A stretch of DNA of 56,837 nucleotides from Haliscomenobacteraceae bacterium (GTDB lineage: Bacteria; Bacteroidota; Bacteroidia; Chitinophagales; Saprospiraceae). Below, piece by piece: positions 10,760 to 44,440 of this stretch; the stretch's first letter is position 1; every line of letters begins with the position of its first letter. The stretch covers positions 1 through 56,837 of the forward strand of contig CANMVX010000023.1 of assembly GCA_947501115.1 (NCBI GenBank), given 5' to 3'. The notes below the pieces were generated by a model. It was not told the DNA's origin, did not search any database, and saw only the letters and a list, made by a program, of their open reading frames with translations. The position numbers and the translations under genes were made by a program.

Positions 10760-11785
10760 TTATTGGTGATAATACACCGGATTGGTAACTACGGTTGTTG
10801 ACCGAATGGCAAAATTAGTAAATTTTTCAGAAATAATTTGCTTTATTAAGTTAACTGCACACACTTCTGATTCATAATGACCAATATCGGCGATTATAAT
10901 TTTATTATTTGCTTCCTGAAACTGGTGGTATTTGTAATCCGAGGTGACAAATATATCTGCTTGTGCCCTAAGGGCGTCTGTCAATAAAAAGCTCCCACTC
11001 CCGCCACAGATAGCTACCTTATGAATTTTATCCTTGCAAAGAAAAGTATGCTTTATAACTTTGAGAGATAAGGCGTTTTTCAATAAATCTAAGAAATCTA
11101 TTGGAGGCATTGGCTGATCGAGATATCCAACCATGCCTGCGCCCACCAGGTATGAAGTGTTTTTTACCCCGGTAATTTCTTTAAAAGGAGTTTTACCTGT
11201 TGATGAATCAATAATATGACATGCTTCGGAAAGTTGATGATTAAGAAGAACCATTGATAATTTACCCTCTGACATATTTGCCATAACAGCTTGATATGAA
11301 ATAGAATGAGGCTTCAGTAAATTTATTTGAGGTAGTATTGTATTTGCTTCATTCTCTGAAAGGACACATTGAAGCTGCGATAATAATCCCTGTTTTTCTT
11401 GCAGAATGGACCTATTATTAAGCCCAATAATTTTCGCTAAAGTTTCATTTATGCCTCTGTGATAGGCGTTATCCAGATTGGTATGAATAACATAAATGGC
11501 GATATCATTTTTTATGGCTTTAAGCAGTATATTTTCAACAAAACCTCCCTGGGATAATTTTTTTAATGGCTTAAAAATGATAGGGTGGTGTGAAACGATC
11601 AAATTGGCTCCATTTTGAATCGTTTCATTAATAACTTCGAGGGTCACGTCCAGGCAAGTCATAATACCCGTTATAACGGTTTGATGGTCGCCAACCAGTA
11701 GCCCACAATTATCATAATCTTCCTGCCAGCTTAAAGGAGCATGCGAAGAAAGAACACGAATAACGTCTTGTATTTTAGTTTGCAT
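10760..11785 (-). CDS. Nif3-like dinuclear metal center protein
   Basis: 341 residues, about the size of Nif3/YqfO with the inserted PII-like domain. The metal-site signatures are WQEDYDNCGLLVGD, IVSHHPIIFKPLKK (HHP), IHTNLDNA near the N-terminal half and the C-terminal CGGSGSFLL, DIFVTSDYKYH and DIGHYESE (ExxxHxxH-type). Members bind two metal ions; proposed roles include GTP cyclohydrolase I-like activity, but no role is firm. The ATG is 2 bp after the upstream stop, so it is translated as part of the operon. Confidence 0.9.
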   Translation of the reverse strand: MQTKIQDVIRVLSSHAPLSWQEDYDNCGLLVGDHQTVITGIMTCLDVTLEVINETIQNGANLIVSHHPIIFKPLKKLSQGGFVENILLKAIKNDIAIYVIHTNLDNAYHRGINETLAKIIGLNNRSILQEKQGLLSQLQCVLSENEANTILPQINLLKPHSISYQAVMANMSEGKLSMVLLNHQLSEACHIIDSSTGKTPFKEITGVKNTSYLVGAGMVGYLDQPMPPIDFLDLLKNALSLKVIKHTFLCKDKIHKVAICGGSGSFLLTDALRAQADIFVTSDYKYHQFQEANNKIIIADIGHYESEVCAVNLIKQIISEKFTNFAIRSTTVVTNPVYYHQ

Positions 11786-11787
11786 CC

Positions 11788-12288
11788 TTAGTCATTTTTA
11801 TTAAGCATAAATTCGGCCATTTTTGTGGACGATATATCGGGCAACAGAGGAATTCGCACTACTTCGCCCTTATTTTCCAAAACAAAAGCTGCCCCAGCTA
11901 TATTTTCAAGGGTATAATCGCTGCCTTTTGCGAGTACATCCGGGATAATGGCTCGAATTAAATTTTCAGGGTTTAATTCAGAGAATGGAATGACCAGATC
12001 GACGGCTTGAAGGGAAGCCAAAACAAAAGCCCTTGAACTCAGTTTGTTAAAAGGCCGGTCATCTCCTTTTAGTTTGTGCACAGAGGAATCGTCATTCAGA
12101 CCAACAATTAGTTTCGTCCCATATCTGGCAGCATCGGCCAGAGAATGAGCGTGCCCGGCATGGAAAAGATCGAAACAACCATTCGTAAATACAATTTTTT
12201 CTTTGTTATTCCTCCAGATGGAAATTATGTCGAGCGCATCTTCCAAACTGGACATTATTTTATTTTCAATATTTTCCTTCACACTCAT
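11788..12288 (-). CDS. rfaE2: RfaE2-type D-glycero-beta-D-manno-heptose 1-phosphate adenylyltransferase family
   Basis: 166 residues of the cytidylyltransferase-like fold. The HxGH motif appears as NGCFDLFHAGH near residue 40, and the C-terminal substrate motif as ISSTKM. The length and motifs match the stand-alone RfaE domain II that makes ADP-heptose for lipopolysaccharide core. Other nucleotidyltransferases (glycerol-3-phosphate cytidylyltransferase type) share the motifs, and no heptose kinase or epimerase is nearby, so the substrate is inferred. Spacing to both neighbours is only 2 bp. Confidence 0.78.
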   Translation of the reverse strand: MSVKENIENKIMSSLEDALDIISIWRNNKEKIVFTNGCFDLFHAGHAHSLADAARYGTKLIVGLNDDSSVHKLKGDDRPFNKLSSRAFVLASLQAVDLVIPFSELNPENLIRAIIPDVLAKGSDYTLENIAGAAFVLENKGEVVRIPLLPDISSTKMAEFMLNKND

Positions 12289-34566: not shown

Positions 34567-35166
34567 TTATTTAACCTGGACATTAAAGGAAATGGTTACT
34601 TTCTCACCAGAAACAATCTGTCCGAACATCGCCGAGGGTGGCTCAATAGCATAATCTTTCATGTTTAAGGTATAAGAACCTGTGAAAGATAAACTTTTGT
34701 CGGCCGAAAAAGAAGCATTAACTGATAGGGATATAGGTTTTTCAACCCCAGCAACATTTAATGTTCCACTTGATTCTAACTGACCTGAACCCGTTGTTGA
34801 GGTGATGGTTTTGAGGTTGTTCAGCGTAAAAATAATCGAAGGGTGTTTTTCATATTTCAAGGCATTATATAACTTTTTTTCCATAGCCGCACCTCGGGGA
34901 CTTTTTATACTTTCTACCGGAACAGAAACTTTTAACGTTTTTATTTTACTGTTTTGAGTCCAAACTCCTTTACTTAAAACTTTATTGTCCATTTCAATGA
35001 CACCATCTACTTTGGTAACATTACAGGTCCAATCATGCAGGGTAGAGGTACCTTGAATCTGCATCGTAGTTTTTTCGGAAAATGAAAATTTCTTGATTTG
35101 TCCGATTAAGCCAACACCAGAGAATAATGAGGCAAAAAGAAAGGGAATGATGATTGTTTTTAACAT
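34567..35166 (-). CDS. YceI family periplasmic protein
   Basis: 199 residues from the ATG at 35166, which places a signal peptide (TIIIPFLFASLFSGVG) at the N-terminus; the longer reading from 35208 adds 14 unlikely residues. The lipocalin-like YceI domain shows IQGTSTLHDWTCNV, RGAAMEKKLYNALKYEKHPSIIFTL and LNMKDYAIEPP. Such proteins bind isoprenoid-type lipids. First gene of the leftward group with SUMF1 and the Gfo/Idh/MocA gene. Confidence 0.88.
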   Translation of the reverse strand: MLKTIIIPFLFASLFSGVGLIGQIKKFSFSEKTTMQIQGTSTLHDWTCNVTKVDGVIEMDNKVLSKGVWTQNSKIKTLKVSVPVESIKSPRGAAMEKKLYNALKYEKHPSIIFTLNNLKTITSTTGSGQLESSGTLNVAGVEKPISLSVNASFSADKSLSFTGSYTLNMKDYAIEPPSAMFGQIVSGEKVTISFNVQVK

Positions 35167-35254
35167 AGCTTCAAAAATATAGGGTTTAATAGGAATCATG
35201 TTTAACAAATCTAATAAAGTAATACAAAAAATAGGTCGATTTGGAAATAATTTA

Positions 35255-35262
35255 TATATTTG
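35255..35262 (+). promoter_or_regulatory. candidate -7 box (TATATTTG) of rpsA
   Basis: TATATTTG followed by CCCCGC lies 58 bp before the ATG at 35321, a typical -7 box and initiation context for Bacteroidota. No TTTG is found at the expected -33 distance. Confidence 0.45.
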
Positions 35263-35320
35263 CCCCGCAATTTAATTTTTTAACCAAAATCTACCTTTCG
35301 TAGATATTAAAACAAAAAAA

Positions 35321-37279
35321 ATGTCTGAAGAAAAAGACGAAATAACTACACCAGAAGAGTTGAATGGCGCTATTGAAGAGCAGCCAGCTACTATCGAGGA
35401 AGTTGTTGTAAAGGCTGCTGAGCCAGTAGAAGTGGTGGAGGAAGAAGAGGAAGTTGAAATGGAAGTTTTACTTGCTGGTCAAGAGACCGTAGGTACCGCA
35501 CATGATGATTTCAATTGGAATATTACAAATAAAGGGGGAATTAATTACTCTGACGAAGAAGCTGTTTCTTTTAGAGAGCAATATTCATCTACTATGAATG
35601 CCGTTTTGGAAAATGAAATCGTGAAAGGTTTCGTAACTTCTATTAATGGTGGTGATGTTGTACTTGATATTAACTACAAATCTGACGGATTAATTCCATT
35701 ATCAGAATTCAGAGACATTCCTGGTTTAGCCGTTGGCGACTACGTGGATGTTTATGTTGAACAACAGGAAGATGGTCGCGGACAATTAGTGCTTTCTCGC
35801 AGAAAGGCTAAATTGTTAAGATCTTGGGAAAGTATTGTTGATTCCTTTGAAAATGGTACTATTATTAAAGGTACCGTTATTAGCAAGACGAAAGGTGGTT
35901 TAATTGTAGATTGCAGTGGATTGGAGACTTTCCTACCTGGTTCTCAAATTGATATCAAACCTATCGTCGATTACGATCAGTATGTTGGTAAGACGATGGA
36001 GTTCAAGGTGGTTAAAATCAATGAAACTATCAAAAATGCTGTCGTTTCTCATAAAGCGCTTATCGAAAGTGATTTGGCTGAACAGCGCGAACACATCATC
36101 GGTAGCCTTGAAAAAGGTCAGGTGTTAGAAGGTGTTGTTAAAAATATCACTGACTTCGGTGCATTCCTCGACTTAGGTGGCGTAGATGGTTTACTCTATA
36201 TCACTGATATTTCATGGGGTCGTATCAATCACCCAATGGAGGTGTTGAGCCTGAACCAGAAAATAAGTGTAGCCGTTCTTGATTTTGATGAGAATAAGAG
36301 ACGTATTTCATTAGGTCTTAAGCAATTACAACCACATCCATGGGAAGTTCTTGCCGCTGGTATCACAGAAGGATCTACGGTTAAAGGAAAGATTGTAAAT
36401 ATTGAAGATTATGGTGCTTTCCTTGAATTGCAACCAGGTGTTGAAGGTTTAATTCACGTTTCAGAGGTGAGCTGGAGTAACCAGCCAGTTAATGCGCGCG
36501 AATACTTCAGATTAGGTCAGGAATACGAGGCAAAAGTCGTTACTATAGATCAGGATGACCGTAGAATGTCATTATCTCTTAAGCAGTTAAGTTCTGATCC
36601 ATGGAGCGAAATCGCTAAAACTTTCCCAGTAGGCAGCCGCCATTCCGGAGAAGTTAAAAATCTTACTCCTTACGGTGTATTCGTTGAGTTACAAGAAGGA
36701 ATTGGAGGAATGGTTCACATTTCCGATCTTTCCTGGACAAAACGTTTTGGCCACCCATCTGAATTCACAAAGGTTGGAGATAAAATTGATGTTCAAATAT
36801 TGGACGTCGATGCAGAAAGTCGCAAACTTTCATTAGGACATAAGCAGTTAGAGGAGAATCCTTGGGATACCTTCGAAAATGTGTTCCCAGTGGGTTCATA
36901 CCATGAAGCAACCATCTTACGTCGTGATGATCGTGGAGCTATCGTTCAGTTACCTTACGGTTTAGAAGCTTTCGCACCGATAAAACATATCCGTAAAGAG
37001 GACAATTCTCTTGCTGAACCAGAAGAAACTTTAACAGTTAAAGTGATTGAATTCAATCGCGATGACAAGAGAATCTTAGTATCTCATTTACGTTATATCG
37101 AGGATATAAAGAAAGAGGCTGAAGAGTCAGTTAAGAAAGAAAAGGTAGTTGAAAAAGATAAAACGCGCCAGGCTGTTAAAAAGCAGCAAAGCACCGTTGA
37201 AAAATCTACCATGGGTGAATTGGAAGGTCTTGCTCAACTTAAAGAGCAATTAAACCAAGGTACTTCAACAGAAGAATAA
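35321..37279 (+). CDS. rpsA: 30S ribosomal protein S1
   Basis: 652 residues with an acidic N-terminal extension of about 65 residues (many Glu), then six S1 OB-fold repeats. Repeats are marked by KGTVISKTKGGLIVD, GVVKNITDFGAFLDLGG, GKIVNIEDYGAFLEL and GEVKNLTPYGVFVEL with the recurring KRISLGLKQL-type ends. A lysine-rich tail follows. S1 helps load mRNA on the 30S subunit. The codon use is that of a highly expressed gene. Confidence 0.96.
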   Translation: MSEEKDEITTPEELNGAIEEQPATIEEVVVKAAEPVEVVEEEEEVEMEVLLAGQETVGTAHDDFNWNITNKGGINYSDEEAVSFREQYSSTMNAVLENEIVKGFVTSINGGDVVLDINYKSDGLIPLSEFRDIPGLAVGDYVDVYVEQQEDGRGQLVLSRRKAKLLRSWESIVDSFENGTIIKGTVISKTKGGLIVDCSGLETFLPGSQIDIKPIVDYDQYVGKTMEFKVVKINETIKNAVVSHKALIESDLAEQREHIIGSLEKGQVLEGVVKNITDFGAFLDLGGVDGLLYITDISWGRINHPMEVLSLNQKISVAVLDFDENKRRISLGLKQLQPHPWEVLAAGITEGSTVKGKIVNIEDYGAFLELQPGVEGLIHVSEVSWSNQPVNAREYFRLGQEYEAKVVTIDQDDRRMSLSLKQLSSDPWSEIAKTFPVGSRHSGEVKNLTPYGVFVELQEGIGGMVHISDLSWTKRFGHPSEFTKVGDKIDVQILDVDAESRKLSLGHKQLEENPWDTFENVFPVGSYHEATILRRDDRGAIVQLPYGLEAFAPIKHIRKEDNSLAEPEETLTVKVIEFNRDDKRILVSHLRYIEDIKKEAEESVKKEKVVEKDKTRQAVKKQQSTVEKSTMGELEGLAQLKEQLNQGTSTEE

Positions 37280-37292
37280 TTATTTGAAGCCT

Positions 37293-37326
37293 AAGATAGG
37301 GTATTTTAAAATGAATACCTTATCTT
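37293..37326 (+). terminator. hairpin after rpsA
   Basis: A 13-bp stem with one G-U pair (AAGATAGGGTATT against AATACCTTATCTT, 8-nt loop) lies 14 bp after the rpsA stop. No long T run follows, and the 3' arm (TATCTTTA) may double as the tRNA-Met -7 region. Confidence 0.55.
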
Positions 37327-37336
37327 TACGCTTCAT

Positions 37337-37410
37337 GGCGCGATAGCTCAGCCGGTTAGAGCGCAGGATTCATAATCCTGAGGTCGGGAGTTCAAGTCTC
37401 CCTCGCGCTA
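37337..37410 (+). tRNA. tRNA-Met (anticodon CAT)
   Basis: Cloverleaf of 74 nt: acceptor GGCGCGA with TCGCGCT, D arm TAGCTCAGCCGGTTAGAGC, anticodon stem CAGGA and TCCTG around loop TTCATAA, T arm GGGAGTTCAAGTCTCCC. The first acceptor pair is G-U, not the initiator C-A mismatch, so this is elongator Met; a lysidine-modified Ile(CAT) cannot be fully excluded. CCA is not encoded. Confidence 0.93.
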
Positions 37411-37412
37411 CA

Positions 37413-37449
37413 AAAATAAAGGACTTACGGTAATTCGTAGGTCCTTTTT
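37413..37449 (+). terminator. tRNA-Met terminator hairpin, left copy of a 35-bp direct repeat
   Basis: AAAGGACTTACG pairs with CGTAGGTCCTTT (one G-U pair, 6-nt loop) and is followed by TT. Bases 37413-37447 recur without mismatch at 41609-41643. Confidence 0.8.
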
Positions 37450-37503
37450 CGTTTCTTGGGGAGGGATGATCAACGTTATTATTTTCAAGAATAAGATATA
37501 AAT

Positions 37504-37712
37504 TTAAAAGCCAGTTCTCATCTCAGGCACTTCTTGGAACTCATCAATAAATATGAGAGTGGTAGTTTTTTAGCTAGTGTTTTACTTTTAAGAAAGAATA
37601 CCGTATTTATTAAATGCTCTATGGATGTGAAATTTTCAAACGGTTCTTTGTCTTCTGAAAGCTCCAGGTTTAAATAGATATATTGTTCATATTGCGTAGC
37701 TATCTTTTGAAC
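37504..37712 (-). pseudogene. fragment of a DUF4143-type AAA ATPase gene, frameshifted
   Basis: Reading the minus strand from 37712 gives VQKIATQYEQYIYLNLELSE and, after EHLINTVFFLKSKTLAKK and a frame change at the A6 run 37566-37571, TTLIFIDEFQEVPE followed by a stop at 37504. The first part matches the strand after Walker A in DUF4143 ATPases (YxYLNLE), and LIFIDEFQEVP is their Walker B. The Walker A region and everything past Walker B are missing. It is therefore a dead remnant of a second gene of the same superfamily as the intact one at 37893, but not a close copy of it. Confidence 0.75.
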
Positions 37713-37713
37713 A

Positions 37714-37801
37714 TGTCACAGAGTGAGGGTAAAAAATGGAAAAACTTGTCACAAAGTGAGGGTAAAATTTTATAAATCATGTAACAAAGTGACACGTAAA
37801 A
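37714..37801. repeat. three direct repeats with a 33-bp period
   Basis: TGTCACAGAGTGAGGG starts at 37714, TGTCACAAAGTGAGGG at 37747 and TGTAACAAAGTGACAC at 37780; each is followed by TAAAA after 0-1 bases. The starts are exactly 33 bp apart. The core TGTCAC-AAA-GTGA(C) is an inverted repeat, so each copy could bind a dimeric protein. They lie 92-179 bp before the ATPase start. Confidence 0.75.
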
Positions 37802-37829
37802 CCACTAATTATTCATTTTCATTTGAATT

Positions 37830-37847
37830 AATGTAAATATTTACATT
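37830..37847. promoter_or_regulatory. perfect 18-bp palindrome, candidate operator
   Basis: AATGTAAATATTTACATT reads the same on both strands. It is 46 bp before the ATPase ATG and covers the place of the -33 element for the -7 box at 37866, the usual position for a repressor site. Confidence 0.55.
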
Positions 37848-37865
37848 TATTCAAACGTAAAAGTG

Positions 37866-37873
37866 TAATTTTG
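37866..37873 (+). promoter_or_regulatory. candidate -7 box (TAATTTTG) of the ATPase gene
   Basis: TAATTTTG fits TAnnTTTG and lies 20 bp before the ATG at 37893, downstream of the 18-bp palindrome. Confidence 0.4.
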
Positions 37874-37892
37874 GCCACAAAATACGAAGGAT

Positions 37893-39200
37893 ATGGAAAG
37901 GGAGTTGTTGAAAAGTTTATTTCAATGGAAGAATAGAGCTGATAGAAAACCCTTGATTATTCGGGGTGCACGGCAAGTGGGAAAAACCTGGCTACTGAAA
38001 GAGTTTGGTAAAACGTACTACAAAAATATTGCATACATAAATTTTGAAACGGCAAAATCATTGCATAGCATTTTTGAAAGTGGGTTTGAGGTAGATAAAC
38101 TGATTATGGCCCTAAAAATTGAAACAGATACGGAAATTACTGCGGGAGAAACCTTGATTATATTGGATGAAATTCAGGAATGTGAAGCTGCCCTTACGTC
38201 TTTAAAATATTTCCATGAAAATGCTAATCAATATCATATCGCGGCAGCTGGATCGCTTTTGGGCGTTTCTTTACATAAAAACAGATCTTTCCCCGTTGGT
38301 AAGGTTGATTTTTTAGACCTGCATCCTTTACATTTCTTAGAGTTTTTAGAAGCAATGAATGAACTGCCATTGTTGGACTTGTTACAAAAAAAGAATTGGG
38401 ATTTGATCACTGGATTTAAAGCAAAGTTTATTCATTTATTAAAGCAATATTATTATGTTGGTGGCATGCCTGAGGCGGTATTAACTTTTATCAATCAAAA
38501 GGATTTTAAGAAAGTTAGGGAAAAGCAATTAGGTATTCTTGCCGCTTATGAGCAGGATTTTTCAAAACATGCGCCTCACGATATCGTACCAAGAATAAGG
38601 CTGGTATGGCAATCCCTTCCATCGCAATTAGCTAAGGAAAATAGAAAGTTTATTTATGGAAATTTGAAAAATGGCGCCAGGGCACGTGAATTTGAGTTAG
38701 CCATCGAGTGGCTTGCGGATGCAGGCTTAGTTCATAAAGTAAGCCGGTGTAATAAACCCGCCATACCATTGATTGCGTATGCAGCGCTTTCAGATTTTAA
38801 ATTATATTTATTAGATGTAGGCTTGTTAGCTGCAATGGGAAATATTGATATTCAAACCTTTATTACTGAACAATCTCTTTTCGAAGAATTTAAAGGCGCT
38901 CTGGCGGAGCAATATGTTTTGCAACAATTTAAATCCCTTAAACAGCTCCCCATTTATTATTGGACGGCAGAAAGGGCAACCGCTGAAGTTGATTTTTTGA
39001 TTCAATATCAACATCGTATCATTCCTGTGGAAGTGAAAGCTGCAGAAAATTTAAAAGCCAAAAGTCTCAAAGTGTATCATCAAAAATTCAATCCTGAATT
39101 AAGTATTCGTACATCCTTAGCTGATTATAGAAAAGAAGACTGGTTAATCAATTTGCCTTTATGTGCTTGTACGGCATTCATAGATGAAAATGGGCTTTAA
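37893..39200 (+). CDS. AAA ATPase with C-terminal DUF4143 domain
   Basis: 435 residues, full length for the family. The AAA_14 domain has Walker A GARQVGKTW near residue 25, Walker B LIILDEIQE near 90 and a sensor strand HIAAAGSLLG. The C-terminal DUF4143 domain contains DFKLYLLDVGLLAA and a PD-(D/E)XK-like core (AEVDFLIQYQ ... IPVEVKAAEN). The family is very common in patchy, repeated copies in bacteria and archaea; its biological role is unknown. Here it stands between two degenerate relatives and downstream of an unusual repeat array. No partner gene is translationally coupled. Confidence 0.9.
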   Translation: MERELLKSLFQWKNRADRKPLIIRGARQVGKTWLLKEFGKTYYKNIAYINFETAKSLHSIFESGFEVDKLIMALKIETDTEITAGETLIILDEIQECEAALTSLKYFHENANQYHIAAAGSLLGVSLHKNRSFPVGKVDFLDLHPLHFLEFLEAMNELPLLDLLQKKNWDLITGFKAKFIHLLKQYYYVGGMPEAVLTFINQKDFKKVREKQLGILAAYEQDFSKHAPHDIVPRIRLVWQSLPSQLAKENRKFIYGNLKNGARAREFELAIEWLADAGLVHKVSRCNKPAIPLIAYAALSDFKLYLLDVGLLAAMGNIDIQTFITEQSLFEEFKGALAEQYVLQQFKSLKQLPIYYWTAERATAEVDFLIQYQHRIIPVEVKAAENLKAKSLKVYHQKFNPELSIRTSLADYRKEDWLINLPLCACTAFIDENGL

Positions 39201-39244
39201 CGAAAGAAGCTTTTTCTATTAGTATGTGTTTTTATATGAAATGA

Positions 39245-39297
39245 AAACAAATACTTACGGTAATTCACAGGTCCTTTTTTGTTTCTTGGGGAGGGAT
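39245..39297. repeat. middle, degenerate copy of the tRNA-terminator repeat
   Basis: It shares ACTTACGGTAATTC, AGGTCCTTTTT and GTTTCTTGGGGAGGGAT with 37421-37467. The stem is spoiled by changes (AAATACTT for AAAGGACTT, CACAGG for CGTAGG), so it is a poorer terminator than the outer copies. It marks the 3' flank of the intact ATPase gene. Confidence 0.75.
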
Positions 39298-39387
39298 AAT
39301 TGAGAAGATTATAGTTACAATAAAATTCATGCAATTATAGTATTTTTACGACATACATTCATCCCGTAAAGAATATACCCTCGTAAA

Positions 39388-39963
39388 ATGTCAGACCATT
39401 TTTTAAACCTATTTGACAGTTATGTAAAACTTACAGACAAAGACATTGAACTTTGTAAGCAACACTTTGAATTTAAATCTTTACCAAAGAATACTATTGT
39501 TGAAGAAGAAAATAAAGTGCCAAAAAATTTGTATTTCATTATAAATGGATTCATGCGCTTATTTTATTATGATGACAATAGGGATGAAATAACAACCCAT
39601 ATTGAATCACACAACCGATTTATTACTTCGTTCACAAATTTTATTCGCGAAATAAAATCTAATGAAAATTTAGCGTGTATTACTAACTGTGAATTTTATA
39701 AAATTGAAAGAAGCAAATTGATTGAATTGATAGACAAAAATGAAAACTTTAAAAATTTAAGTCTTGTGATTTTTGAACGGGCTGCTGCCAGAACTCAAAT
39801 AAGAGCCAACGACCTTGCTACACTTACAGCTGATTTGCGATATAAAAAACTGGTTGAACAACAACCTGAAATAATTCAGAATGTTCCTATCCAATACATT
39901 GCTTCTTACTTAGGTATAAAGCCTCAAAGCCTTAGTAGAATTAGAAAGCAATTAATTAAATAA
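39388..39963 (+). CDS. Crp/Fnr family transcriptional regulator
   Basis: 191 residues, normal for Bacteroidota Crp-like proteins. A cyclic-nucleotide-binding beta roll (residues about 20-115, LPKNTIVEEENKVPKNLYFIINGFMRLFY) is joined by a dimer helix to a winged helix ending IQYIASYLGIKPQSLSRIRK. The phosphate-binding cassette is not conserved, so the ligand is unknown. There is no Fe-S cysteine cluster as in FNR. It precedes the hydroxylase fusion by 74 bp in the same direction and may control it. Confidence 0.9.
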   Translation: MSDHFLNLFDSYVKLTDKDIELCKQHFEFKSLPKNTIVEEENKVPKNLYFIINGFMRLFYYDDNRDEITTHIESHNRFITSFTNFIREIKSNENLACITNCEFYKIERSKLIELIDKNENFKNLSLVIFERAAARTQIRANDLATLTADLRYKKLVEQQPEIIQNVPIQYIASYLGIKPQSLSRIRKQLIK

Positions 39964-40037
39964 CAAATGTTAAGTGGTGTTCGGATCACTCATTCTAATT
40001 TCGTATCACATTTAATGGCATTAAAATTTGATATGAA

Positions 40038-41528
40038 ATGTTAGAATTCATAAAGCAGTATTTCACTACAGTTCTTGCAGCACTTACGATAATGAGTGTA
40101 GCTTATTTGATTTTCTGGGTAATCTTCGGCCAAAAACTTAGAAACAGAAAAATACAACTTTCTAAAAGAGCAGGTTGGGCTCAAATAAAAGGAGAAATTG
40201 GAGCAACACTACTTTCATTTATAGGAGGTACGACATTTTCAATTCTTTTAATATCATTAAAAGATGGTGGATTAACAAAGTTTTATGTTGAAGCGGGGAA
40301 ATATGGCTTATGGTATGAATTTTTTATGATTTTTATCATGTTGGTCATATCTGACACCTGGTTTTATTGGAGTCACCGGGTAATGCATCACCCAAGTATA
40401 TACAAGTATGTTCACGCCTTACATCATAAAAGTTTGGATGTAAATCCTTATACATCAAGTTCCTTTCACGTTATAGAGTCCTTATGGCTAACGTTTTGGC
40501 TTTTACCATTAGCCATTTTAATGCCCATTTCTATGACTGTTTTAGGAATCATGCAAGTAATTGGAACTTTAAATAATTTGAAGTCGCATCTGGGGTATGA
40601 GCTTTTTCCTAAATTTTTCATTCTTCCTCCATTTAATATGCTAGTAAATGCAACGAATCATAGCCTTCACCACACACAATACAATGGTAACTACGGTTTG
40701 TTTTTTCGGTTTTGGGATATCGTTTGCGACACAGAATTAAATTCGACAGAAAGTACATTTAATGAAATTCACCAAAGGGAAAATACATCCATCATTGATA
40801 ATTCCAAATACAGAACATTGATTATTGAAAAATTGGTAAAAGAAACTCCCGATACTGTTTCTGTCTATTTTAAAACGGCGGACAAAGAATTTTACAATTA
40901 TAAAGCAGGGCAATACCTCACTTTAAAAGTTAAAGTTGGTGGTAAAATTTATCATCGTTGCTTTTCATTAAGTTCTTCGCCAAATATTCATGATTTTCTA
41001 AGAATTACGGTGAAACTAAAGGGTGAAGTTTCGCATTATTTTTATAATACCTCAAAAATTGGTGATGAAGTAGAATCTTTGCTACCTATTGGGGATTTTA
41101 ATTTTAAACCAAATATAGCTGTTCAAAATAATTATGTATTGGTTGCAGGAGGCAGTGGAATTACCCCATTATATAGTATGATTATTCAAATGCTACAATT
41201 TGAACCTAAAAGCAAAGTGATTTTACTTTATTCAAATAGAAAGGTAGAAAGTATCATTTTCAAAAAAGAACTAGATCAATTAGCTCGTCAATATCCTCAA
41301 TTTGAATACATTGATTTTATTTCAGGCAACAAGCGAATAGAAAAAAATGATTTAAACATATACAAAGACGCCTGCTACTACCTTTGTGGTCCAGATTCTT
41401 TAAAAGATGAAATATCGCAACAGCTAAAAGATTTAGCTATTTCTAAATCTAATATCAATATAGAGCATTTTGCTGATGGCTATGTACCTTGGTTTGGTCT
41501 TTTTAAAGGACAAAAACCAAGTATTTAG
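40038..41528 (+). CDS. fatty acid hydroxylase/sterol desaturase fused to FNR-type reductase domain
   Basis: 496 residues. Residues about 1-235 are a membrane-bound di-iron hydroxylase with four to five helices and the histidine boxes HRVMHH, HALHH and HSLHHTQYNGNYG. From about 270 a flavin reductase follows: FAD site RCFSLSSSP, NAD(P) site VAGGSGITP, LLYSNR and YYLCGPDSL. The C-terminal 2Fe-2S domain that normally ends PaaE-type reductases is absent; the protein stops just where it would begin. The fusion would carry electrons from NAD(P)H to the hydroxylase, acting on a membrane lipid. The substrate is unknown, and a separate ferredoxin might be needed. Confidence 0.88.
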   Translation: MLEFIKQYFTTVLAALTIMSVAYLIFWVIFGQKLRNRKIQLSKRAGWAQIKGEIGATLLSFIGGTTFSILLISLKDGGLTKFYVEAGKYGLWYEFFMIFIMLVISDTWFYWSHRVMHHPSIYKYVHALHHKSLDVNPYTSSSFHVIESLWLTFWLLPLAILMPISMTVLGIMQVIGTLNNLKSHLGYELFPKFFILPPFNMLVNATNHSLHHTQYNGNYGLFFRFWDIVCDTELNSTESTFNEIHQRENTSIIDNSKYRTLIIEKLVKETPDTVSVYFKTADKEFYNYKAGQYLTLKVKVGGKIYHRCFSLSSSPNIHDFLRITVKLKGEVSHYFYNTSKIGDEVESLLPIGDFNFKPNIAVQNNYVLVAGGSGITPLYSMIIQMLQFEPKSKVILLYSNRKVESIIFKKELDQLARQYPQFEYIDFISGNKRIEKNDLNIYKDACYYLCGPDSLKDEISQQLKDLAISKSNINIEHFADGYVPWFGLFKGQKPSI

Positions 41529-41616
41529 GAATACAAAGCGAGTTATTGAAAAGTTTATTTCAATGGAAGATGCTTTATTTGACGGTGTATTTTTATATGA
41601 ATGAAATGAAAATAAA
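41529..41616 (+). pseudogene. internally deleted stub of the DUF4143 ATPase gene
   Basis: Bases 41535-41570 match the first codons of the intact ATPase gene (37898-37933; GAGTTNTTGAAAAGTTTA and onward, one mismatch after the first few bases). From about 41568 the match jumps to the 3' flank of that gene around 39204-39250 (GCTTT, GTTTTTATATGA-like, AATGAAAA). About 1.27 kb of coding sequence is therefore missing. It begins directly after the stop of the hydroxylase fusion and ends in the right copy of the terminator repeat. Confidence 0.75.
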
Positions 41617-41643
41617 GGACTTACGGTAATTCGTAGGTCCTTT
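41609..41643. repeat. right copy of the 35-bp direct repeat (hairpin)
   Basis: Identical over 35 bp to 37413-37447 behind tRNA-Met, including both arms of the hairpin (AAAGGACTTACG, CGTAGGTCCTTT). It ends 36 bp before the DUF3179 ATG and is likely to work as a terminator. Confidence 0.85.
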
Positions 41644-41679
41644 GTTGTTTCTGTCTGAGGTTTTCATTAAATTTAGGCT

Positions 41680-42861
41680 ATGAAAACAACGATAGCAATA
41701 CTTGGTCTGCTCCTTTTAATTCTTTTTGAATTCGCCAGAGTGTATTTAATTATGCCCATGCCTGGTAGTCAAAATTTTGATTCCATTGAAATTGCCTATT
41801 TTTTAGGGTCCAATAAATGGATTATTCGATTTATTGGGTATCTGATGGTATCTGTTCCCTTGTTTTTAATCCTTAGAAATGGTGTTAAAAAAGAAAAATT
41901 GATCATTGGAGGATTGACCGCAATGTATTTGATCGTTTTTTATGTTTTTACCTTTCAAATGGAAGCTGATAAAATGTTTTATCAGCCAACCAAAGTGGTA
42001 ACCACTTCTTTATCGAAAAATAAAATACCTGATAATAAATTAGTCATTGGCGTAGTGATAGATAGTGTCGCCAGTGCCTATCCAATTCAATTAATTGGTT
42101 ATCATCATCAAGTGGTTGATACGATGAATGGTCATCCAATAATGGTTACTTATTGCACCGTTTGTAGAACAGGTAGAATTTATAGTCTAATAGTAAATGG
42201 AAAGCAAGAGACCTTCAGGTTGGTTGGAATGGATCATTTCAATGCGATGTTTGAAGATGCTACTACAAAAAGTTGGTGGCGACAGTCAACTGGTGAATGT
42301 ATAGCGGGTCCTTTAAAGGGTTATAAATTAAAGGAATTTAAATCTGAGCAACTTATATTGTCAGCGTGGGCCAGAATTCATCCTAACACACAAATCTTAC
42401 AACCTGATCCTCTTTTTAAAGAGGAATTTGAGCAAATGGATACGTATGATAAGGGGATTTCTAGGGGAGATTTAACTAAAAGAGATACCGCTTCCTGGAA
42501 AAATAAATCATGGGTTTTAGGCATTCAGGATGGGGCCAATGCTAAAACTTATGACTGGAATCAACTTACGAAGCAAAGAATAATACAGGATTCTCTCCCT
42601 AATAATCCCATTGTTATTCTTTTAGAGAATGATACCGCATCCTTCCATGCATACAGTAGAATTGTTAATAAAGAAATTTTGATATTTCATAAAAAACAGG
42701 ATTCAATATGGGACGTAAATACTGGATCAAAATGGAACTATGAGGGAGTTTGTGTGGATGGAAAGTTGAAAGGGAATATGCTAAAAAGCGTTCGTTGTTA
42801 TCAGGAATTTCTTCATTCATGGGAATTTTTTCACCCCCAAAGTATTAGATACAATGATTGA
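41680..42861 (+). CDS. DUF3179 domain membrane-anchored protein
   Basis: 393 residues. The N-terminus has a signal anchor and two further hydrophobic segments (LIMPMPG ... GYLMVSVPLFLIL ... MYLIVFYVFTFQ). The DUF3179 region starts near 120: VTYCTVCRTGRIY, GMDHFNAMFEDATTKSWWRQSTGECIAGPLKG, followed by HPNTQIL. The cysteine pair CTVC is conserved in the family. The function is unknown; the fold is expected to be periplasmic. The 3' end overlaps the convergent fragment at 42845 by 17 bp. Confidence 0.85.
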   Translation: MKTTIAILGLLLLILFEFARVYLIMPMPGSQNFDSIEIAYFLGSNKWIIRFIGYLMVSVPLFLILRNGVKKEKLIIGGLTAMYLIVFYVFTFQMEADKMFYQPTKVVTTSLSKNKIPDNKLVIGVVIDSVASAYPIQLIGYHHQVVDTMNGHPIMVTYCTVCRTGRIYSLIVNGKQETFRLVGMDHFNAMFEDATTKSWWRQSTGECIAGPLKGYKLKEFKSEQLILSAWARIHPNTQILQPDPLFKEEFEQMDTYDKGISRGDLTKRDTASWKNKSWVLGIQDGANAKTYDWNQLTKQRIIQDSLPNNPIVILLENDTASFHAYSRIVNKEILIFHKKQDSIWDVNTGSKWNYEGVCVDGKLKGNMLKSVRCYQEFLHSWEFFHPQSIRYND

Positions 42862-43105
42862 CAGCTCCTTGTGATAGGTATAATTCGATATTGAGATTAT
42901 CTATCCAAAGATTATTATCGTTTACAAATTGAATTAATCTCTTTGTTTCTTCTTCTTTGTACTGCTGTTGATTTTTAACCATTGAACTTGCTCCCTGGCT
43001 TCCTTTAAGGTAACTGCAGGTTGTTTGGATAAGATGGTGGCACTTAACTTGGCTCGTTCCTGAAAGGATATGTTGGATGTCATCTCTCATATAGTTTTTA
43101 GTCAT
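42845..43105 (-). pseudogene. truncated N-terminal fragment resembling polyvalent-protein kinase-like genes
   Basis: 86 residues. Segments such as MRDDIQHILSG, QVKCHHLIQTTCSYL and KEEETKRLIQFVNDNNLWID resemble, from memory, the start of Bacteroidota mobile-element proteins with a kinase-like polyvalent domain, which continue with a GAEQ(K/R)V(Y/F) strand. Here the reading frame leaves that pattern at QGAVNHCI and stops inside the DUF3179 3' end. It is best seen as a remnant cut off by a rearrangement; a real short gene is possible. Confidence 0.5.
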
Positions 43106-43339
43106 ACAAAGTTAATCAATTATTTCAATTGTAATCATGTAAAATATACTCCTTGAGTAAATCATAATAAATTGTATATCAGTTTATTAATATTAAATAA
43201 ATATTCATAACTCATACAAAGGGAGTTTAAGTTGACCTCGCACCATAAGCATGAAAGCCTTTTGTTTCTACAATCCTCCCTTTCTTTTAAACCCTACTTT
43301 AGAAATTGCGTTATGTATTAAATAAACTTAAAAAGGGTC

Positions 43340-44440
43340 ATGAGTCAACATTTTCACCGTTTACAAGTCAAAGAGGTAAAAGAAGAAACCCCAGAGGCTT
43401 TCACTATAAAATTAATAGTTCCTGATGAATTAAAAGATTATTACGTTTATCAGGCGGGACAATATTTGACGCTAAAACTTAATATTAAAAGTAAGGAAGT
43501 CAGGCGCTCTTATTCCATGAGTTCCAGTCCTTTGGAAACTGATTTGTGTATTACGGTCAAAAGAGTTAAAAAAGGGTTAGTTTCAAATTTCCTTGCTGAC
43601 AATCTTACAAAGGGTGATTTTTTAGAGGTATCCCAACCAGAAGGGAATTTTCATCCTGAATTAAATCCGGAACAAAGGAAAAATTATTTCCTGGTTGGTG
43701 CTGGTAGCGGTATAACACCTCTTTTTTCCATCGCAAAAGTGGTACTTGAAGAGGAACCCCAAAGTTCAGTTTACCTGCTTTATGGCAATAGAAACGAAGA
43801 ATCCATTATTTTCAGGAATGAATTGGAACAAATGACAAAGCGGTATGCGGGGCAATTTTTCTGTACCCTAACCCTTTCTCAGCCTAAAAGAGAAAAACCA
43901 GGAGGTTTGGGTGGTTTGTTTTCAAAGGGCAAACTCACCTGGGATGGTGAAATAGGAAGAATTGATAAAAAAATGATCCAGCGTTTTAGATCGGAAAATG
44001 TGGCGTCGGGTGTGAAAAGTGAATATTTTATTTGCGGACCTGAAGAATTAGCTGCTACCGCAGAAACCTCTCTGATTGAAGATGGAATAAAAAAAGAAAA
44101 TATAAATAAAGAGTTATTTTTATCGGGTGACGTATCAAGCACAAAGAGTAATAAAAATGGGGTAAATGCCGTTATGAAAGTCGAATTGGGCGATGAAATT
44201 CTTACGCTGGAACTGCCCGCACAAAAAACAATTCTTCAGGTTCTTATCGCCGCCAAGAAAAATCCACCTTATTCATGTACCGCAGGCGCTTGTTCCAGTT
44301 GTATGGCCAAAGTGATTTCTGGTTCCGTTATTATGGATGTTTGCCACGCTTTAGATCCGGAGGAAATTGAACAGGGATATATTCTTACTTGTCAGTCGCG
44401 CGCTAATTCCGAAGAATTAGAGATTACTTATAAAGTTTAA
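43340..44440 (+). CDS. PaaE-like ferredoxin reductase with C-terminal 2Fe-2S domain
   Basis: 366 residues. FAD domain with RRSYSMSSSP, NAD(P) domain with VGAGSGITPLFSI, LLYGNRNEES and YFICGPEEL, then a plant-type ferredoxin domain with the cluster cysteines in CTAGACSSC and a last Cys in LTCQSR. This is the layout of the phenylacetyl-CoA epoxidase reductase PaaE. No paaABC genes are present, so it more likely serves another oxygenase or desaturase, possibly the one beginning at 56.7 kb or the hydroxylase at 40.0 kb. The next gene starts 8 bp downstream. Confidence 0.9.
   Translation: MSQHFHRLQVKEVKEETPEAFTIKLIVPDELKDYYVYQAGQYLTLKLNIKSKEVRRSYSMSSSPLETDLCITVKRVKKGLVSNFLADNLTKGDFLEVSQPEGNFHPELNPEQRKNYFLVGAGSGITPLFSIAKVVLEEEPQSSVYLLYGNRNEESIIFRNELEQMTKRYAGQFFCTLTLSQPKREKPGGLGGLFSKGKLTWDGEIGRIDKKMIQRFRSENVASGVKSEYFICGPEELAATAETSLIEDGIKKENINKELFLSGDVSSTKSNKNGVNAVMKVELGDEILTLELPAQKTILQVLIAAKKNPPYSCTAGACSSCMAKVISGSVIMDVCHALDPEEIEQGYILTCQSRANSEELEITYKV

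Follow-up and report, generated by a model that had tools for sequence, protein, structure and literature searches.

Islands that target a transfer RNA (tRNA) gene carry the tRNA at one end, a duplicated stretch of its downstream sequence at the other, and an integrase, and tycheposons are small tRNA-linked cargo islands. A survey of gene-transfer hotspots between core genes gives an integrase in 45% of them and a tRNA or transfer-messenger RNA (tmRNA) gene in 29% (Oliveira et al. 2017, PMC5635113), and the core defence hotspots described for Pseudomonas aeruginosa hold additive islands, often tRNA-associated (PMC10250203). Here we describe the region behind a tRNA-Met gene of a Haliscomenobacteraceae bacterium (contig CANMVX010000023.1; the window is the whole stretch analysed, 56,837 nucleotides) and compare it with the same locus in six congeners, G001 to G006. 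Three copies of the tRNA's terminator (T1, T2 and T3) punctuate the region and separate two gene modules, A and B. The locus is a variable exchange hotspot, in part of predicted defence type, and we consider it rather probable that on this 3' side of tRNA-Met modules have been swapped across the genus, by recombination at the terminators and their flanks, following an old integration. The features of the window are these:

35321-37279, forward strand: rpsA (30S ribosomal protein S1), the left backbone gene (NCBIfam PRK06299, 810 bits), adjoining tRNA-Met in 6 of 6 congeners
37337-37411, forward strand: tRNA-Met (CAT), from ARAGORN and Rfam (RF00005, 72.7 bits)
37413-37447, forward strand: T1, terminator hairpin of tRNA-Met and left repeat, present in 6 of 6 congeners
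37534-37716, reverse strand: remains of a second ATPase gene of DUF4143 type, in divergent orientation (tblastn)
37710-37775, no strand: tandem pair of 33-nucleotide (nt) copies of a AACATGTCACAAAGTGAGGGTAAAA-type repeat, 79% alike, between the two ATPase genes (repeat search, family D6)
37893-39200, forward strand: module A, an AAA_14/DUF4143 ATPase, phage-defence candidate PDC-S01 (Pfam PF13173, PF13635; PADLOC PDC-S01, E 1e-180)
39244-39300, forward strand: T2, hybrid terminator copy with a T3-type left flank and a T1-type right flank, its hairpin decayed in the window
39388-39963, forward strand: module B, Crp-like regulator binding cyclic nucleoside monophosphates (PF00027)
40038-41528, forward strand: module B, fatty-acid-hydroxylase domain fused to a flavin/nicotinamide adenine dinucleotide (FAD/NAD) reductase (PF04116, PF00970, PF00175)
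41529-41608, forward strand: PDC-S01 ATPase remnant, its start region joined to its own 3' tail (tblastn; repeats D4, D5, D7)
41609-41643, forward strand: T3, right repeat, identical to T1
41680-42861, forward strand: DUF3179 gene (PF11376)
42862-42890, no strand: right edge of the variable region, where the alignment to G003, G004 and G006 picks up again

The Pfam matches, to an AAA_14/DUF4143 ATPase, a nucleotide-binding regulator, a hydroxylase-reductase fusion and DUF3179, agree with the gene content proposed in a first-pass annotation made from the sequence alone. That annotation had also taken rpsA and the tRNA as left backbone and the segment behind them as accessory. Both views held up: rpsA, tRNA-Met and T1 are kept together in all six congeners, while the content behind T1 is unlike that of the window in five of them, G001 alone being alike. 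It is because this left side stays constant while the content behind it differs that we speak of a hotspot. The relatives are represented by draft contigs, and the islands of G002, G005 and G006 run off theirs and were read only in part; with these three included, the seven genomes show six arrangements. In G001 modules A and B are both present at about 97% identity and lie on one contig, which speaks against their arrangement in the window being an artefact of assembly. In G003 the tRNA, T1 and the ATPase are followed by a T3 that is shortened and by what is left of DUF3179; G003 lacks the Crp/hydroxylase module that the window has between T2 and T3, and the junction of the missing part falls within the terminator. 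This may be a partly empty site, and a state that never had module B would look alike. The allele of G004 is nearly empty, T1 and the right flank being about 235 nt apart; it was read on two contig ends overlapping by exactly 55 nt and resumes only at about 42890. G006 carries AbiL/RloAB-like genes together with the remnant of an ATPase gene, and T3, shortened as in G003, opens a second of its contigs. G005 has another gene behind T1, then the 3' half of a tRNA-Met with its terminator; its second contig carries BREX-type genes, an ATPase remnant, T3 and then DUF3179, and aligns to 41535-42871 of the window at 87%, including an ATPase remnant similar to the one that precedes T3 in the window. 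Different genes again lie behind T1 in G002.

The first-pass annotation expected a loss of the segment to leave one terminator between the tRNA and the DUF3179 gene. G003 bears this out in part, lacking the T2-T3 part with a junction inside the terminator, but in the readable parts of the seven genomes we saw no allele in which tRNA and DUF3179 are separated by just one intact terminator. Nor does the right boundary lie at T3, where it had been drawn. DUF3179 is 99% alike in G001 and 89% in G005, is reduced to remnants in G003 and G006, and has no match in G002 or G004. It is therefore accessory itself, and the variable region runs to about 42.86-42.89 kb. Between DUF3179 and the right flank, G001 (L038) and G003 (L081) have in common an extra stretch of about 0.6 kb, noted by eye, that the window is without.

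Outside the congeners we checked the rpsA region in 13 of 33 less related genomes (12 of the family, 1 of the order), and in none of the 13 does tRNA-Met stand directly behind rpsA; in G012 it lies 1.8 kb downstream of the gene.

The clearest trace of exchange is the middle copy. A degenerate third terminator had been placed at 39245-39297; it exists, with limits now at about 39244-39300, and is a hybrid of T3 and T1. We took 60 nt to the left of the T2 hairpin and 14 nt to its right and set their match scores against 2000 shuffles. In the window the left flank is like that of T3 (score 25 against a shuffle mean of 10.3, with 0 of 2000 shuffles as high) and unlike that of T1 (6.0, mean 6.8), while the right flank matches T1 (12, mean 5.4, 0 of 2000) and not T3 (4.0, mean 4.0). 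T2 of G001 has the same pattern (left 28, 0 of 2000; right 8.0, 27 of 2000), and there it shares its loop base, C, with T3 of G003 and G006 and has a T-run of T3 type. T2 is most likely a join of T3 on the left with T1 on the right, as would be expected from two alleles crossing at their terminators, and the terminator copies most likely record at least one event of joining alleles.

The outer copies had been described as perfect 35-bp direct repeats, and T1 at 37413-37447 does equal T3 at 41609-41643 across 35 nt, the adjacent base differing on either side. A repeat search gave a three-member family starting at 37414, 39244 and 41610; over 57 nt the first copy shares 86% identity with the second and 81% with the third. 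The annotation had named its own possible refutation, that the terminator might be a common element at unrelated loci; a 60-nt query found exactly these three places at E <= 0.001 in the 4.70-Mb own genome. Searched with up to 3 mismatches allowed, the 24-nt hairpin core gave 2 matches in the window, and 100 shuffles gave none. T1 and T3 fold into strong hairpins (-17.3 kcal/mol, z -6.5, and -21.2 kcal/mol, z -7.1), and that of T2 is weak in the window (-1.2 kcal/mol). The right flank of T1, GTTTCTTGGGGAGGGAT, extends to about 37469. A G003 copy that stands behind a tRNA-Met 3' half is 88% like T3 taken with the flank to its right, measured across 59 nt. Because the flank occurs behind the terminator in G005 as well as behind this tRNA-fragment copy in G003, it is probably the native downstream sequence of tRNA-Met. 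The repeats had been read as either target duplications or recombination sites; they are probably both, because the right flank of T3 is probably native and T2 is a crossover hybrid.

The likeness of T1 and T3 is also informative. At three hairpin positions T1 of the window's clade has G, T and A, as against T, A and G in G005 (T1, T2 and T3), and the fragment copy of G003 has the same T, A and G. In the window and in G001 both T1 and T3 show the clade state, and T3 stands at the same place in the window and G005, with homologous flanks on both sides. That both copies, each fixed in its place, carry the same change suggests that T1 and T3 have undergone conversion. On a larger scale we compared one gene on each side of the island. 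By rpsA, G006 is 98.9% like G001 and pairs with it (support 0.938); by the OmpA-like gene on the right it is 91.3% like G001, and the split there sets G003, G005 and G006 against the other four (support 0.997). This conflict in the placement of G006, and the shortening of T3 common to G003 and G006, would fit recombination through the island.

As the annotation had noted, no integrase is evident. Tyrosine recombinase PF00589 gave 30 matches in six genomes (all but G002), none on the locus contigs, and serine recombinase PF00239 gave 6 matches in seven genomes, again none on the locus contigs. By Pfam, none of the three open reading frames (ORFs) of 37413-41643 has a transposase domain. As for an integron integrase, no tyrosine recombinase lies on the contig; attC sites as such were not searched.

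The different alleles, the hybrid flanks of T2, the shared hairpin changes and the searches that found no such recombinase on the locus contigs could be brought together in the following history. An ancestral element probably integrated at the tRNA-Met/terminator site. This event would have left T1 behind the tRNA and displaced the native downstream sequence, as T3, to the right end; it would also have introduced two PDC-S01 ATPase genes in divergent orientation. Later, accessory modules would have been swapped, lost and stacked by recombination at the terminator repeats and homologous flanks. In the line leading to the window and G001, by descent or transfer, an allele T1-A-T3 would have crossed at its T3 with T1 of an allele T1-B-T3, giving T1-A-(T3/T1)-B-T3 with T2 as the crossover junction. 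Occasional conversion may keep T1 and T3 alike, RecA would be the acting enzyme, and the cell may gain a benefit against phages.

Several points weigh against this history. Repeats of about 35 nt are short for efficient RecA exchange, and a site-specific recombinase acting in trans would yield a hybrid junction identical to that made by RecA; since contig ends cut through the island in G002, G005 and G006, a recombinase could sit in the unread part. The flank lengths for T2 were picked after the sequences had been seen, and the shuffles preserve single-base content only. In the window, moreover, the loop base and T-run of T2 lean to T1, which blurs the crossover point. Conversion rests on three hairpin sites only, and T3 of G003 and G006 shares two of the three clade bases and has a third base at the remaining position. 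The OmpA-like gene may have been exchanged separately. Finally, the rpsA tree joins G001 with G006 and not with the window, so the shared two-module state may be inherited or transferred, and a single shared ancestor having modules A and B is unsupported by that tree.

The alternative that survives best, although we think it unlikely, is serial site-specific integration, in which the integrases of successive elements recognise an attachment (att) site at tRNA-Met and its terminator, element B having entered at the attR copy T3, and the integrases have since been lost or act in trans. It too predicts a hybrid att copy. The 3' halves of tRNA genes are the usual trace of tRNA-targeted integration, and an exact 17-nt pattern found tRNA-Met 3' halves besides the gene once in G005 and twice in G003, the other five genomes showing only the tRNA-Met gene itself. 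The half in G005 and one of those in G003, on a contig not linked to rpsA, precede the same terminator; the second G003 fragment starts at the same anticodon-loop position and has a different sequence behind it. These halves point to an older tRNA-targeted integration, with which the history favoured above also begins, and tyrosine recombinase genes are present elsewhere in all six genomes searched. The earlier statement that the repeat starts after the tRNA stands for the window and not for G005 or the one place in G003. Accretion is disfavoured by the searches of the locus contigs, which found neither recombinase family, and by T2 and T3 of the window, which consist of the terminator without any part of the tRNA. 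In addition, the right end of module B is a decayed end of the resident ATPase, found also in G005, for which an exchange of alleles is the better fit. On the G003 contig in question (L180, G003:C81) the two tRNA-Met 3' halves are at 226-257 and 11718-11821, the second with the same terminator, and the roughly 11.5 kb between them encodes a predicted protein of 2885 aa (amino acids).

It is improbable, to our mind, that the terminator hairpin is a dedicated recombination site for a chromosomal recombinase acting in trans, with the modules as cassettes between terminators; were this so, the end of the tRNA transcript would stay protected while modules come and go, and T1 and T3 would be identical through being recombined and not through recency. 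A little more doubtful still is a tandem duplication of the ATPase segment, the inside of the second copy having later been replaced by the Crp/hydroxylase genes. In its favour, module B ends in remnants of the start and tail of an ATPase gene, and the 41529-41608 remnant matches ATPase residues 1-13 by tblastn (E 2e-4, in a search space of two short stretches). Against it, a similar remnant stands before T3 in G005, with no second copy in the readable part of that island, so the remnant is probably older than any duplication in the window's line. A transposon's target-site duplication would explain direct repeats flanking a segment, and is very improbable: 35 nt is long for a target duplication, the three ORFs lack a Pfam transposase domain, there are three copies with mixed, hybrid flanks, and the content after T1 varies among species. 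Chance similarity of terminators among unrelated genes is refuted by the core matches absent from 100 shuffles, the three genome places and the homologous flanks.

As to the cargo, the ATPase of module A is assigned to PDC-S01, a predicted phage-defence family. PADLOC matched PDC-S01 in the window, BrxF, BrxC, PglX and BrxH models in G005 and AbiLi/AbiLii in G006, and gave no match for the one G002 protein submitted (of three ORFs) or for one G005 protein. Several kinds of predicted defence gene thus occupy the same place in these genomes. Close PDC-S01 relatives are sporadic: at E <= 1e-60 they occur in 7 of the 149 genomes from the order, and at E <= 1e-100 in 8 of the 392 from the phylum, the own genome included in both counts. 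The divergent ATPase remnant at 37534-37716 carries LIFIDEFQEVPE, which we take to be a Walker-B-like motif, and a paralogue in the own genome (L005) matches window 37578-37712 (tblastn E 2e-4, in a search space of two short stretches only). Module B has a GC (guanine plus cytosine) content of 0.29-0.32, compared with 0.40 for rpsA and 0.37 for the window, which might weakly fit import. An Rfam scan of 35000-44000 reported the tRNA alone, megablast gave no near match among plasmid records, phage records held a single distant match (64% identity across 18% of the query), and none of the literature titles listed is on this locus.

We also considered PDC-S01 genes as general neighbours of tRNAs. 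Among the best 80 of 576 relatives' loci, 6 tRNAs lie within 1 kb, one of them in the G003 copy of this locus, and the ATPase is always on their 3' side. Leaving out the G003 locus and adding 14 further loci, there are 5 tRNAs in 175 kb within 1 kb versus 6 in 717 kb at 2-8 kb (p = 0.046). Taken by themselves, those 14 loci have 0 tRNAs within 1 kb, and the three paralogue loci in the own genome have no tRNA; the association is at most suggestive and we set it aside. In the surveyed loci (L085-L164) many PDC-S01 genes have, directly before the start codon, a repeated short motif like ACAAAAAGTCGTTCGAAAAAATGTA, first noticed by eye. A regular expression for its core matched 28 of 76 upstream 300-nt stretches and 1 of 73 controls, with two or more copies in 11 upstream stretches and 0 controls; it may be a site to which the ATPase itself or a regulator binds. 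In a Lentisphaerae metagenome-assembled genome (MAG), L164 7040-7678 has tandem tRNA-Gln 3' ends, each with up to about 150 nt behind it, between the tRNA and the PDC-S01 gene. In a Draconibacterium MAG (L108 7186-9560) tRNA-Leu stands on one side of the PDC-S01 gene and a tRNA 3' fragment on the other, with a terminator-like hairpin, seen by eye, behind the fragment.

Motif variants were also noted by eye near module ends in the relatives. Variants of GGATGAAATTTCACCGGA occur there in G002, G004 and G006, and the motif is not in the window at up to 3 mismatches. Variants of the near-palindromic CCGGATGAAATTTCACCGGA, likewise not in the window, occur in G006, G002 and G004 (L039 4575-4600 and 6980-7000; L040 about 2640; L080 reverse strand about 110).

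The sequence here can be read as a record of the way in which a hotspot of defence type may change when no integrase takes part; in the single junction preserved, two alleles seem to have been joined end to end at a copy of the terminator. Other genomes could be searched for such scars of exchange in the form of terminator repeats that follow tRNA genes, which a search for repeats of tRNA ends alone would miss.

Compared with known systems, the locus shares with tRNA-targeted islands the tRNA at its one end, a duplication of downstream sequence at its other end, and the tRNA 3' fragments of G005 and G003, but the repeat of the window is without a tRNA part and no integrase was found. It resembles tycheposons as a small tRNA-linked cargo island, and differs in that the search for tyrosine recombinases found none on the locus contigs it covered; no search was aimed at tycheposon genes. 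With the P. aeruginosa hotspots, as far as these are described in PMC10250203, it shares varied anti-phage systems and, with one of them, a tRNA beside translation genes; the organism is another, the modules here are small, and mobile genes are reported there and none were found on the locus contigs here. With the hotspots summarised in PMC5635113 it has in common conserved flanks, varying content, no integrase seen in the spot and, possibly, signs of recombination at flanking genes, and what sets this locus apart from that summary is that short terminator copies inside it mark the points of exchange, one of them a hybrid junction. It seems to add one more case to a known class of gene-exchange hotspots, and not to be a new kind of element.

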